Shown: piece by piece, positions 3,279-7,611 of the stretch
How the letters are laid out: every line of letters starts with the position of its first letter
How positions within the stretch are numbered: position 1 is the first letter of the stretch
Source: an uncultured bacterium
Lineage (GTDB): Bacteria; Verrucomicrobiota; Lentisphaeria; Victivallales; UBA1829
Length of the DNA: 64,000 bases
Assembly: GCA_949297765.1 (NCBI GenBank)
Contig: CASFTV010000015.1
Coordinates: 1 to 64,000, forward strand
Direction of reading: 5' to 3'
Notes under the pieces: generated by a model
Seen by the model: only the letters and a program-made list of their open reading frames with translations
The model's database searches: none
Told to the model about the DNA's origin: nothing
Position numbers and translations under genes: made by a program

Positions 3279-3498
3279 GCAAAAAAAATAAAAATTTTCA
3301 TAACACATTATATACGAGGATAATATTATGTTCATCGACCTGTGTTTTCTTGTCTGAAAGCTCGAAAAATGGTAGAAAAAGCCCTGAAAAAATTCCGGAA
3401 AATTTCTTAACGCTTCATAAAAAGGTGGAACAGGCGCCCGGGGACAAACCATAGTGGTTCAGTTTCCTGCGCCGAAACACCAGAAAGGTTGTGAAGCG

Positions 3499-5424
3499 AT
3501 GAGCAAGGAAGTGAAGGCGATTATCTACGCTCGCCAGTCGTCGGGAGATGATGATGTCTCTGCAAGTGTGGAACAGCAGGTGAAAAATTGCCAGCAGTTG
3601 GCGAGGGAGTGCGGCTACTGCGTGGAGGGAATCTTTCGGGATTTGAATATATCCGGCAAATTCTACCCCGATACGCCAGGCGCAAACACCATTTGCAATT
3701 TTGATATGGCACTCCGTAACTGGGCGGCGTCCACCTCGTCGATGCAGATTCGCTTCCGGCAGGGATTGGGAGAGGCATTTGCCATGCTTAAGGAAATAGA
3801 TTTCATTCTTCTGGATGATTTCACCCGGCTGATGCGTCCTCTGCCGAACAGTTATCTGGAAGGATACATGAAGCAGGAATTGATCTGCAACAAAGTCAAG
3901 CTGCATTGTGTCAAGGGGGGAATCGCTGATCCGAATTCTTTTGGAGACAACATCGTCTCTTCTCTGATCTCCATGATCAACGCCAATCAGCTTGAGATCC
4001 AGCGGCAGAAAAGCAAGGCGGCATTGAAAAAACTCAAGGACGACGGTTACAGGCCTTCGGGCACTAACATGCGGGGGTATCGCAGGATTGGCAAGCATAA
4101 GTATGAAATCGTTCCGAAAGAGGCTGATTTCATCCGGGAGGCTTTTGCAATGGGAGTCGCCAACTTCTCCTATATGGCGATCTGCCGTAAACTCAGCAAG
4201 AAATACGGGATTCATGATCTGCACTATGACACCCTGATCCCGATCTACCAGCGCCCTGAATACGCAGGGTATTGCTATAACTCGGAAGGAGAATTGATCG
4301 AGTCAAAGTGCTTTGGTCCCATCCCGATTGTTACTCTCTCCCAATTTCTCCAGATGAAAGAGCGACTCCGGAATAAACGTATTCACAATCATGACCGAAA
4401 ACACATCTATGCTTTTACCGGATTGTGTTACTGTGGCTACTGTGGAGAGCGGATGCAGATTGTGTCCTGTAACGCAATGCCGCATTCGCTGGAAGCCGGA
4501 TGTCGGCTGTACTACTTTGGATGTGTCAGGAACATTTATCGAGAGTATTCCCGTGATTGCGGAAAAACGCGAATCCGTTACAGTTACCCGTTTCCTTTCG
4601 GCTGGCGAGTTCCACCGGAACGGTGGCCTGTAACGCAGAAAACATTGGACTCACCCAAGCCGCCTGTCCCTTCGGATTTGTACAATATCGGATTACGGGA
4701 ATCTCTGCTGGCGTTGATTGTAAAACCGTTGCTCGAAGAGCAGAAGCGGTTATTGTACGGCAGCAGTAATCTTGACGTTAAGATAAACCGTCTGGAACAG
4801 GAAAAAGAGCGTATCATGAGCCGTCAGAAAACGCTCGCGAATATGTTTCAGCGGGGTAGTATTCCGGACGAGCAATTTGAGCAGCTGTCAAGAGATCTGA
4901 AAAACTCGATGGAAAAGATCAGGAGTGAGCTCCTTGAACTGACCGCGACAGCCTGTGTTGGCCAGAAAAAAGTGCTGGAGGAACTGAAGTTGCAACTTCA
5001 TATGCTTCAGGCTGTCAAGAATGTTGAAGACAATCTGTATAAGAAACATGCGCAACAGCTGATCGAACGGATCAATATCTTTGCATATCACATTGAAATC
5101 TTTTTCCGGAACGGCAAGTCTTTTATTCTGGAACGGATTCCCAGATGGGGGGCAAGGATTATGCCGAACTGGAACTTGGTCATGCGGAGAAACAAGGCTT
5201 ACATCAAATACTACTATAAGAGCTTTTATCAAGGGGATGAGCGAGAACGGGTTCTCTATGATGACAAGACGATGAATATTGTTGCGGTAGGGTGTAATCC
5301 TCGTCCTAAAGCATGGGCAGATTCTCCGAGTCGCCGTTGGGACTGGCGCACGCAGGAGATAAGTGACACCTTCCCTCTTGAGAGCACCGGAGGCCAGTCG
5401 TTTGAGGATTCGCATACCGAATAA
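3499..5424 (+). CDS. Large serine recombinase (integrase)
   Basis: 641 residues from the ATG at 3499 (AGAAAGG upstream); an in-frame GTG at 3454 has no such signal. The N-terminal resolvase domain begins 'IIYARQSSGDDD', with the nucleophilic Ser after Arg, and contains 'ILLDDFTRLMR'. A recombinase domain follows (about residues 160-300, 'RGYRRIGKHKYEIVPKEADF'). Next come a zinc-ribbon (CxYCGYCGERM ... YYFGCVRN), a coiled coil around residues 430-500 and a C-terminal extension. This is the standard layout of integrases that join attP to attB across a 2-bp core. Its position beside attL fits. No recombination directionality factor is recognised; one of the small element proteins could be it. 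Confidence 0.95.
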   Translation: MSKEVKAIIYARQSSGDDDVSASVEQQVKNCQQLARECGYCVEGIFRDLNISGKFYPDTPGANTICNFDMALRNWAASTSSMQIRFRQGLGEAFAMLKEIDFILLDDFTRLMRPLPNSYLEGYMKQELICNKVKLHCVKGGIADPNSFGDNIVSSLISMINANQLEIQRQKSKAALKKLKDDGYRPSGTNMRGYRRIGKHKYEIVPKEADFIREAFAMGVANFSYMAICRKLSKKYGIHDLHYDTLIPIYQRPEYAGYCYNSEGELIESKCFGPIPIVTLSQFLQMKERLRNKRIHNHDRKHIYAFTGLCYCGYCGERMQIVSCNAMPHSLEAGCRLYYFGCVRNIYREYSRDCGKTRIRYSYPFPFGWRVPPERWPVTQKTLDSPKPPVPSDLYNIGLRESLLALIVKPLLEEQKRLLYGSSNLDVKINRLEQEKERIMSRQKTLANMFQRGSIPDEQFEQLSRDLKNSMEKIRSELLELTATACVGQKKVLEELKLQLHMLQAVKNVEDNLYKKHAQQLIERINIFAYHIEIFFRNGKSFILERIPRWGARIMPNWNLVMRRNKAYIKYYYKSFYQGDERERVLYDDKTMNIVAVGCNPRPKAWADSPSRRWDWRTQEISDTFPLESTGGQSFEDSHTE

Positions 5425-5546: not shown

Positions 5547-5759
5547 TTGTCGAAGAAACGGCACCCTCTGGGGACGGACGAAAGCTCAAACAACTACGCC
5601 AAAACCCGCCGTCACGATGTGCAGGATTTCAATGTGATTCTTGCCGCTGCGGGAGGGCGGTACGACTGGATGACGCCCGGAGTTACTGATCTGAAAAATC
5701 CTCTGCTGGCAGACGAATCCGCCTTGCTCGCAACTCTTGAAGAGAAAGGTCAAATCTGA
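5547..5759 (+). CDS. Small hypothetical protein
   Basis: A TTG-started frame of 70 residues with GAGGAT 9 bases upstream, 122 bases after the recombinase. The sequence ('HDVQDFNVILAAAGGRYDW...') has ordinary protein composition but I do not recognise it. It could be a decayed remnant or a small accessory factor of the recombinase. A second tiny frame begins two bases after its stop. Confidence 0.35.
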   Translation: MSKKRHPLGTDESSNNYAKTRRHDVQDFNVILAAAGGRYDWMTPGVTDLKNPLLADESALLATLEEKGQI

Positions 5760-5761
5760 AA

Positions 5762-5920
5762 ATGGCAAGCTGGCAGGAAACGTTCCTCTCTCTTCCGATA
5801 GATGCCCGGAGGAGGTACGCTGAATTGTACTGTCGCAAAGGGATGCGGGCGAAGGTGGGACGGTGTCGGCAATCCCGGGGGCGGGGCAAAGCCCCGCCCC
5901 CGGGATTGAGAGAGCTTTAA
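5762..5920 (+). CDS. Tiny hypothetical ORF, C-terminus made of a palindromic repeat
   Basis: ATG at 5762 directly follows the previous stop; 52 residues (MASWQETFLSLPIDARRRYA...). The last 15 or so residues are encoded by the perfect palindrome at 5870-5908, so the original reading frame may have been cut by insertion of that repeat. No family is recognised. Low confidence as a functional gene. Confidence 0.25.
   Translation: MASWQETFLSLPIDARRRYAELYCRKGMRAKVGRCRQSRGRGKAPPPGLREL
5870..5908. repeat. Perfect 18-bp GC-rich hairpin
   Basis: CAATCCCGGGGGCGGGGC (5870-5887), loop AAA, and its exact reverse complement (5891-5908). There is no T-run after it, so it is not a classical terminator. It looks like an interspersed palindromic unit. 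A search for further genomic copies would decide this. Confidence 0.7.
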
Positions 5921-6064
5921 ATCAAGCGGTTCCAACAGAAGAGATCAGGAAACTTTTAGAAGATTTTTATTTGATTTTTTTGAAAATATGCTGTATTCTA
6001 CGTATAGTAAGAATTCACATAACCATGGAGGTTCACAACTTTATAGAGTTACAAAGTTTTAATT

Positions 6065-6213
6065 GCACAATTTTTCAGGCTACCCCTACAAACTACCACC
6101 TTGTAAATAGCCTGATCAATCAGATGCGGAGAAATTGTGCCGTGTTTTTTGCACGGTGCATTTCTTGGTCTGTATTCTGATTGATGCTGTGGTAGGCATG
6201 TAGGGGTGTATAG
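6065..6213. other. Highly structured non-coding segment (nested inverted repeats)
   Basis: Four stems nest in order: 6081-6090 with 6199-6208, CTACCAC 6093-6099 with GTGGTAG 6189-6195, ATCAATCAGA 6115-6124 with TCTGATTGAT 6176-6185, and GTGCCGTG with CACGGTGC flanking a T6 loop at 6145-6150. In addition GCACAATTT (6065-6073) is complementary to AAATTGTGC (6132-6140), an alternative pairing. No ORF covers it convincingly. It could be a structured RNA leader for the zinc-ribbon gene, or a cis site for replication or transfer of the element. Confidence 0.5.
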
Positions 6214-6248
6214 ATCAGAGATGCACCTCTTTTTTTGAGGTCTCTGAT
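6214..6248 (+). terminator. Hairpin upstream of the zinc-ribbon gene (attenuator/terminator-like)
   Basis: ATCAGAGA (6214-6221) pairs with TCTCTGAT (6241-6248), and CCTC (6226-6229) with GAGG (6237-6240) around a T-rich loop. It lies 47 bases before the next ATG. It lacks a trailing T-run, so termination is uncertain. Confidence 0.4.
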
Positions 6249-6294
6249 TTCAACGCTCCCAAAACTGACTGACAAACAAAATCAGGAGACTACC

Positions 6295-6687
6295 ATGGCA
6301 AATTTCACCTTTAACTGTCCCGAGTGTGGACAGCACCTTGAAGCTCAGGACGAATGGAGAGGGCAACAAACCCAGTGCCCATCTTGCGGAACCAATATAG
6401 AGATCCCCAAGATCATGCTCGTAAAACCTGTAAACATCGATCCCCAAGAACAAATAAAAAAGCTGAAAAATGCAGTTATATTCTTTATTGTTTGCTCGAT
6501 TGTCTTCTTTTTATGCCTTGTGGGCACTTTTTATAACATTGCTACGGGAAGCCATGTTCAACGTTCTCTTTCGCACGTCTTGATTCCTACTTTTGCCATA
6601 GGTATCTTTTTTTGTGGGTTTATTGTAATAGCTGTCCACAAAATAATCCGCAAACTTCAATCCCAAATCGACCAAAACGGACGCTAG
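6295..6687 (+). CDS. Zinc-ribbon membrane protein, unknown function
   Basis: 130 residues from ATG 6295, with AGGAG 7 bases upstream. The N-terminus has a CPECG ... CPSCG zinc ribbon (residues about 8-36). Two hydrophobic membrane helices follow ('AVIFFIVCSIVFFLCLVGTF' and 'LIPTFAIGIFFCGFIVIAV') and then a basic amphipathic tail. It is first after a long structured leader and ahead of the GIY-YIG nuclease gene. Soluble zinc ribbon plus two-helix anchors are common in small accessory proteins of this bacterial group; no function is assigned. It may work with the nuclease. Confidence 0.7.
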   Translation: MANFTFNCPECGQHLEAQDEWRGQQTQCPSCGTNIEIPKIMLVKPVNIDPQEQIKKLKNAVIFFIVCSIVFFLCLVGTFYNIATGSHVQRSLSHVLIPTFAIGIFFCGFIVIAVHKIIRKLQSQIDQNGR

Positions 6688-6747
6688 AAACAGCACCCAC
6701 AACCACGCAATGGAGTGTCATTGCCCAGCAAAGAGAAAGGTCTTTCT

Positions 6748-7611
6748 ATGCCTTCCAAAGAAGCAGCATTCAACTTGTCCGTTATCTTGGAACAGGCTGG
6801 ATTTGATGCGAAAGCTCGGAGACGCATCAAGCTCATCCGCCATCCGATTTCCAATAAGACTGTCAAAGCAATCTATGACAAAGGCTACATCGAAATTTAC
6901 CAGTGCGAGCAGTATCCCGAGACTTTCCGGAACTGTGACTACGTTTTCAGCTTTATCGGTGAAGGCGGCAGCTCGGCGAGGTTTATAGGGTGCTATAAAG
7001 TCGGAGCTTCTCGTCCAGCTTCGGAAATGCGGTCAAAGATTCCGGACGACTATCCCGATAAAGCATCTTTCCAGGACGACTCAAAAAGCGTTTATTTCGA
7101 TTTGCAGAAGACCGATATTCTGGAATCTCTTCAAAATCGCCTTGTCATCCGCTGGAATAACCCTATTTCCTGGCACCAGTGGGCTACCAATGATATGCCG
7201 GTAATCACAATCTCACCACGTATTCAATTTCCGGGATACGAATCAGTGTCCGTTACATTTCAAGAACTCAAAGAGATTATTGAAGAGCAAACTGCCGACT
7301 GGTTCAATCCTCTTTCCAAAGTCGGCGGCGTTTACCTTATCACCACGCCGGAAGGTCTCTATGTTGGATCAGCATACGGCAAAGAAGGTCTTTGGAATCG
7401 CTGGTCTGATTATGTTCAAAGCAAACACGGCGGGAACAAAGAACTGATTGACTTGATAGAGAAAAATCCCGGAATATACCATGAGTTCCGGTATTCCATC
7501 TTAAAAGTCGTTCCTAAAAAATCTATCGATGAGGATGTGATCGCATGGGAAAATTATTTCAAAGAAGTTCTTCAAACCAGAAATTCTTCCTGGGGGTTGA
7601 ATGAGAATTGA
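6748..7611 (+). CDS. GIY-YIG family nuclease with an N-terminal domain of unknown function
   Basis: 287 residues from ATG 6748 (AGAGAAAGG upstream, preferred over an earlier in-frame GTG at 6715). The C-terminal ~100 residues carry the GIY-YIG signature: 'GGVYLIT', 'LYVGSAYG', the catalytic Arg in 'LWNRWSDYV', and a late Glu in 'IAWENYFKE' that matches the metal-binding Glu. All key residues are present, so it should be active. Residues 1-185 ('YDKGYIEIYQCEQYPETF...') are a domain I do not recognise, perhaps target recognition. Its place as cargo on an integrative element suggests a restriction-like or element-maintenance role; this is inference. Confidence 0.85.
   Translation: MPSKEAAFNLSVILEQAGFDAKARRRIKLIRHPISNKTVKAIYDKGYIEIYQCEQYPETFRNCDYVFSFIGEGGSSARFIGCYKVGASRPASEMRSKIPDDYPDKASFQDDSKSVYFDLQKTDILESLQNRLVIRWNNPISWHQWATNDMPVITISPRIQFPGYESVSVTFQELKEIIEEQTADWFNPLSKVGGVYLITTPEGLYVGSAYGKEGLWNRWSDYVQSKHGGNKELIDLIEKNPGIYHEFRYSILKVVPKKSIDEDVIAWENYFKEVLQTRNSSWGLNEN

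Follow-up and report, generated by a model that had tools for sequence, protein, structure and literature searches.

Leader attenuators of the purine, SAM, T-box and protein-dependent kinds work through alternative pairings that compete for a shared strand, with an intrinsic terminator lying just before the start codon. Type III toxin-antitoxin loci such as ToxIN are laid out in a related order, with a promoter, a structured RNA, a terminator and then a protein gene. To our knowledge, restriction-modification and similar accessory genes have few RNA regulators, and the control of such genes is largely open. A phage defence island is the setting in which PMC12255303 describes RptR, which represses restriction-modification systems of diverse bacteria. 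Here we analysed an element at positions 6065-6248 of a 64,000-nucleotide stretch of DNA (the window). We read it, with a probability of about 0.83, as the 5' leader RNA of a zinc-ribbon operon, a transcription attenuator that can adopt either of two nested folds, referred to as fold A and fold B, which exclude each other. The features of the locus are as follows (z-scores and counts out of 2000 are from the permutation tests described below).

5980-6008, plus strand: sigma-70-like promoter, TTGAAA-17 nt-TATAGT, a sequence match that the first-pass annotation had missed
6065-6073, plus strand: 5' strand of P0, the anti-antiterminator; pairs with 6132-6140 and covaries (z -13.4, 0/2000)
6076-6082, plus strand: 5' strand of P1 (fold B); pairs with 6108-6114 and covaries (z -13.7, 0/2000)
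6082-6090, plus strand: 5' strand of the outer stem PK1 (fold A); pairs with 6199-6207, each column holding several kinds of standard pair (z -14.7)
6093-6099, plus strand: 5' strand of the second stem PK2, CYACCAC (fold A); pairs with 6189-6195
6115-6124, plus strand: 5' strand of P3 (fold A); pairs with 6176-6185 (z -13.6, 0/2000)
6132-6144, plus strand: UP strand, whose partner is P0 (fold B, z -13.4) or T5 as P4/antiterminator (fold A, z -10.2)
6137-6144/6152-6159, plus strand: inner stem of fold A, all pairs standard
6155-6166, plus strand: T5 strand, the 3' side of P4/antiterminator (fold A) or the 5' side of the terminator (fold B)
6155-6165/6217-6227, plus strand: terminator stem, followed by U7 at 6230-6236; also missed at first pass
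6184-6199, plus strand: P5 hairpin ATGC-TGTGGTAG-GCAT (fold B), stem 6184-6187/6196-6199 (z -12.2)
6199-6207, plus strand: 3' strand of PK1 (fold A), from covariation and a check of the pairs
6216-6227 and 6230-6236, plus strand: T3 strand and U-run, predicted to form an intrinsic terminator with T5
6214-6248, plus strand: 3' hairpin P6, which covaries (z -5.1) and is missing from some homologues
6295-6687, plus strand: zinc-ribbon gene of 130 aa (Zn_ribbon_3 above the Pfam cut-off), the putative regulated gene
6715-7611, plus strand: next ORF, 27 nt past the zinc-ribbon gene, no Pfam match

The window's own copy is strongly structured. The minimum free energy of 6065-6248 is -78.3 kcal/mol, where shuffles average -46.6 (sd 4.2; z -7.6), and the predicted fold beats all 200 shuffles, none of which equalled it; the minus strand gives a weaker signal than the plus strand (z -5.5). 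The first-pass annotation had described four concentric stems, all of which are present with every pair standard, and a 9-base alternative between 6065-6073 and 6132-6140, which indeed consists of nine Watson-Crick pairs and occupies the 5' strand of the inner stem. The separate 3' hairpin that it placed at 6214-6248 is likewise there, and hairpins 6076-6082/6108-6114 and 6184-6187/6196-6199 are additional to its list. The loop of P5 is complementary to 6093-6099, the 5' strand of PK2. It had also held that no coding explanation fits; the ORF that crosses into the element (5863-6180) has no Pfam match and homologues vary by compensating base pairs, so there is no sign that the element is coding.

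Downstream, ORF 6715-7611 and the zinc-ribbon gene probably form one operon, and from a motif we take the C-terminal part of the former to be GIY-YIG nuclease-like. Upstream of the leader lies a large serine recombinase (3454-5424; Resolvase domain above cut-off), with a similar ORF in the same place at locus L009, and between the recombinase region and the leader there is a GC-rich inverted repeat, perfect over 18 bp around a 3-nt loop (5870-5908), probably a terminator or a repeat element.

On sequence evidence, the element is a structured RNA family. There is one copy in the window's own genome, and blastn found copies in nine of 61 genomes including that one, 70-87% identical over the matched parts, with several genomes holding more than one. 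A pattern search gave 45 stretches in named genomes, 33 of them from Lentisphaeria/Lentisphaerae and many of these from the rumen, cecum or colon of herbivores; the 12 from other groups reached no more than 17.7 bits when scored with the model, and we discarded them as chance matches. A first covariance model (R1) matched in 16 of the 36 genomes from the family; in the class, taken to be Lentisphaeria, it matched in 54 of 197, a single genome holding as many as 12 matches. A second (R2) matched in 69 of 387 genomes from the phylum, Verrucomicrobiota, 23 of these outside the class. We examined the regions of 80 + 40 of the model matches listed. The weakest of 43 aligned divergent matches scored 30.0 bits, and the best score in 12 genomes of other phyla, picked for a chance pattern match, was 20.5 bits (E 0.06). 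Beyond the phylum, R2 found a full-length match of 44.6 bits in one of 148 genomes of the phylum of L041, a Pontibacter contig, and nothing in 149 genomes of the phylum of L039, a search that had no positive control. A lone copy outside the phylum lies at L239 1501-1648/L240 3208-4259, where the next clear same-strand genes are presumably helix-turn-helix and Fic-like. Nothing was found by blastn of the element in phages and plasmids, or of L239 in plasmids. Three patterns had no match in viral contigs, where exact patterns would miss diverged copies; with no such match, a phage origin was set aside as without support. Many copies sit close to contig ends, as expected for repeats that break assemblies, and at the contig starts of L014 and L046 there are tandem partial RNA copies without a gene.

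The compensatory changes proposed as a check of the structure are abundant. Across fold A, 97.4% of 2448 alignment cells are paired and 25 of 26 pairs have changed on both sides. The alignment of 99 matches (98 distinct) holds 553 double changes compared to 142 in shuffles (0/500), and pairing falls to 29-46% when the partner is slid by 1 to 3 columns, all in an alignment that was fitted to the covariance model and hence leans towards the structure. P3 is not in the model, and an unfitted test gave energies of -12.8 within sequences vs -7.0 across them (z -13.6, 0/2000, 36 sequences), with anchors misplaced in a few rows. In the 43 divergent matches, 97.3% of 997 cells are paired, with most of P4 missing from some copies (L219, L229). 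Stem by stem, PK2 is paired in 99.0% of cells with both sides changed in 7/7 pairs, P5 in 90% with 3/3, and the terminator stem in 98.2% with 7/10. Left out were L014:75-315 and L034 (partial) from one alignment, and L026 and L044 from another. Counted on the plus strand, G-U outnumbers A-C by 213 to 11, 137 to 12 and 100 to 4 (about 11 to 25-fold), and it is therefore the sense RNA that carries the conserved structure.

The competing pairing that the first-pass annotation had seen in a single sequence, P0 with UP, is conserved by covariation (z -13.4, 0/2000, 99 sequences), as are P1 (z -13.7) and P5 (z -12.2; 99 sequences and 0/2000 for each). T5 covaries with two partners, UP upstream (z -10.2) and T3 downstream (z -11.5), and the control pairing of UP with T3 does not (z +1.4). 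Where T5 varies from GGTGCAT to GGCACAT, T3 follows: columns 150-232 are C-G in 47 and U-A in 45, and columns 151-231 of the terminator stem are G-C in 45 and A-U in 42. All six tested pairings hold (0/2000 each), both among 26 representatives sharing at most 60% identity and in the divergent set (as 43 sequences and as 30 representatives), whose sequences were not used in defining fold B, in permutation tests that leave the relatedness of sequences in place. Non-partner controls were not all flat, at z -2.6 for P0:T5 and -2.5 for P5a:P1b with 99 sequences, and from -2.2 (P0:T3) to +4.8 (P0:T5) in the representative and divergent test, but the negative values are far weaker than those of true pairs. 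P0, P1, P5 and the terminator stem thus make one nested fold (B) and PK1, PK2, P3 and P4 another (A), and because UP, T5 and neighbouring bases are common to both, the two are mutually exclusive. Covariation across the aligned copies shows both predicted folds and their sharing of strands; a conserved terminator and a conserved antiterminator compete for a common strand, and do so again in the divergent set.

The placement of the copies is that of a 5' leader that tends to have its own promoter and to face a co-directional gene. In 96 of 99 copies, an ORF of 40 aa or more begins within 250 nt past the match (within 60 nt in 67 and 120 nt in 88), the median distance from the U-run being 36.5 nt, and in L029, L053 and L060 a ribosome-binding site lies directly 3' of the U-run. 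A close gene is missing at a few copies: at L198, at the second of the L014 copies, at an L137 copy on a contig end, and at L239 outside the phylum. Promoter-like sequences (at least 10/12 matches) occur in 40 of 138 upstream regions vs about 3.2 in shuffles; they cluster about 80 nt 5' of the core, with a strong match in only those 40 of 138 copies, and most units of leader plus SNase gene (SNase units) carry a TTGAAA-17-TATATT promoter. U-runs are interrupted in some copies.

With a promoter and a terminator of its own, the element could in principle be released as a discrete 200-nt RNA that acts in trans, the downstream gene being incidental, and the copies that stand alone or in tandem and lack an intact gene (L014, L142) and L239, which has no same-strand ORF longer than 114 aa close by, would suit such a small RNA. 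We consider this improbable, since only the next downstream gene is mostly co-directional (nearest ORF 93/113 downstream, compared to 66/124 upstream; 142 matches, ORFs of at least 100 aa within 1 kb) and starts at that short median distance, and since a conserved antiterminator pairing is useless where only a terminator is needed. 6S RNA was rejected as an identity: the number of matches varies from 0 to 12 between genomes, 143 of the 197 class genomes have none (E 0.001), and there is no Rfam match. Attenuation by a leader peptide, with a ribosome stalling on a short ORF to select the fold, deserves the least credence of the alternatives. A purine-rich AACAGGAAAGG is conserved after the promoter in most SNase units and might be taken for part of such a leader, but only 49 of 138 copies have an ATG (GTG and TTG not being counted) in the interval 80 to 20 nt upstream of the core, and the SNase-unit leaders examined have no conserved start codon there.

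For the attenuator that we favour, the strands suggest a simple mechanism. Transcription would start near 6015, to judge by the position of the promoter. Formation of the concentric stems in fold A would lock T5 (6155-6166) with UP (6132-6144), so that the terminator is blocked and polymerase enters the gene; once polymerase has passed the U-run, P6 may hide T3. In fold B, 6065-6073 would capture UP, leaving T5 free to pair with T3 (6216-6227) beside the seven U's, and transcription would end about 60 nt before the start codon. From what is known of intrinsic terminators we infer termination by fold B and read-through by fold A; the choice between them is presumably regulated. Up to 6236, before P6 appears, the computed energies are close (-73.5 kcal/mol for fold A and -68.4 for fold B), and with P6 included they are -86.4 and -70.7. 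Fold A being more stable in silico, fold B has to gain its advantage from kinetics or from a factor; a metabolite, a protein, an RNA or the speed of transcription might tip the balance. Between the riboswitch, attenuator and antisense-controlled replication readings originally offered, the riboswitch/attenuator side fits, and gains in specificity from the terminator and from the co-directional gene directly downstream; the replication reading finds neither an Rfam match nor a replication gene in the downstream families scanned.

The genes behind the leaders are strikingly mixed. Among 80 of 91 downstream proteins scanned with Pfam (11 short, cut or doubtful ones being left out), there were SNase (15), EcoRI_methylase (8), N6_Mtase (5), Sel1 (4), ankyrin (3), GmrSD_N (2) and M48 (2), together with the overlapping zinc-ribbon families Zn_ribbon_3 (9), DZR (8) and DUF7560 (8); zinc-ribbon genes follow several copies besides the window's. 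Copies also face EcoRI-type methylases with DUF262/GmrSD, type IIG or III restriction-modification genes and SNF2 helicases. Within the order there is a type III methylase with its restriction subunit (L226, G059). Outside the class we found an Eco57I/IIG methylase with a T5orf172 helicase (L230), a similar methylase (L225), a type I/IIG-like enzyme (L217), PLD+SNF2-like proteins (L214, L233) and methylase genes sharing an N-terminus with the EcoRI-type ones (L207, L218, L220), that of L220 being followed by a DUF262-type REase_II. At E 1e-10, a defence library in which the SNase and ankyrin models are candidates only matched 95 families, among them MTase_II (7) and REase_MTase_IIG (3), in the nearest ORFs downstream of 108; in the nearest upstream ORFs of 119 of 121, two at a neighbouring copy being left out, it matched six families with one member each. 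Many downstream genes are not defence genes.

Several smaller families recur as well. A family of about 150 aa (L134 2685-3128, also L136, L140, L053 and L060) starts 13-17 nt past the U-run, without a 3' hairpin between the U-run and the gene. Another of about 110-130 aa lies behind several group-2 leaders (L173, L174, L176, L184, L190, L194), with a motif like CRxMExECRxxWxxAMxxSPxLAxYC. Pfam returned nothing convincing for the 148-aa and 122-aa downstream families. At L120 3109-3962, one leader is followed by an SNase gene and then directly by the start of an EcoRI-type methylase gene.

Leader and gene appear to travel as a unit. Between contigs, leader+SNase units are 66-93% identical, most pairs aligning from -180..-10 to about +480..+540, just past the gene, and leader+methylase+DUF262 units are 67-76% identical up to about +2150, the end of the second gene. 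Most of the 12 SNase units compared have unrelated flanks (L120 and L138 have theirs in common), and there are tandem copies that retain remnants of the gene start. These findings suggest that leader and gene have been transferred together. Could the element itself then be the mobile part, a DNA recombination or transposition site that folds as a single strand and carries variable genes? Units that look alike in unrelated contexts, with most alignments ending near the promoter and past the stop codon, the tandem copies with gene remnants, and the serine recombinase adjoining the window copy, with its counterpart at L009, are what such a cassette would leave. Yet the 213:11 excess of G-U over A-C on the sense strand speaks of RNA, the borders of the 12 SNase units have no common end sequence, a recombinase-like ORF was noted by eye (not systematically) beside only two of 15 listed copies, and a DNA site needs neither two alternative folds nor a U-run. 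We therefore regard a mobile cassette site as very improbable, and an attC-like single-strand recombination site in particular was ruled out by the 213 G-U vs 11 A-C and the lack of common borders in the 12 SNase units.

Our reading is instead of an attenuator that serves mobile accessory and defence-type operons. Given that restriction-modification, nuclease and zinc-ribbon genes stand behind relatives of the leader, the switch probably governs the timing of expression of accessory and defence-type genes of this sort. More speculatively, and on balance doubtful, the family may be a new riboswitch-like class, spread across Verrucomicrobiota, that would respond to a sign of infection or of DNA entering the cell, or to a nucleotide produced at that time, and would turn restriction-modification and other defence operons on or off by transcription antitermination. 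If true, one RNA sensor would be common to many unrelated defence systems. One leader class with an explicit two-state mechanism stands before type II, IIG and III restriction-modification, SNF2/PLD helicase, exported nuclease and zinc-ribbon genes, and the strands named here for mutation offer a direct handle on the control of these genes. A ligand, if found, would reveal the signal controlling accessory and defence genes in these bacteria.

The covariance-model search proposed at the outset assigned the element to no known RNA family. At gathering score, Rfam gave no match in the whole window, the element included, and only chance matches in 5750-6700 at E up to 10; Rfam 15 at its gathering cut-off gave none for the elements of 13 + 20 + 20 homologous loci, where the only matches lay elsewhere in the loci (Acido-Lenti-1 in L019, and tRNAs in one 20-locus set). 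In the accessible text of PMC2864571, Acido-Lenti-1 is the only Lentisphaerae entry found. Within the text covered by full-text literature searches the RNA is not described; a 2017 set of 224 candidate RNAs lies outside that scope, and a non-Rfam match there is possible.

Set beside the systems described at the outset, the element resembles riboswitches and factor-dependent attenuators in having its own promoter, strand-sharing alternatives, a terminator before the start codon, strong covariation and many unrelated genes under one leader type. It differs from them in that its terminator and antiterminator folds each rebuild the whole RNA, and in its genes, which are restriction-modification, nuclease, zinc-ribbon and repeat proteins rather than a metabolic pathway; unlike known attenuator families, it is without an Rfam match at gathering score. 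With ToxIN it has in common the succession of promoter, structured RNA, terminator and protein gene. A type III toxin-antitoxin was nevertheless rejected, as the window element shows no repeat array of the short tandem RNA kind and the downstream genes come from many unrelated families and not from one endoribonuclease toxin. As with RptR, the regulation is common to restriction-modification systems in diverse bacteria; RptR is a repressor, taken to be a protein, whereas the regulator proposed here is a cis-acting RNA.
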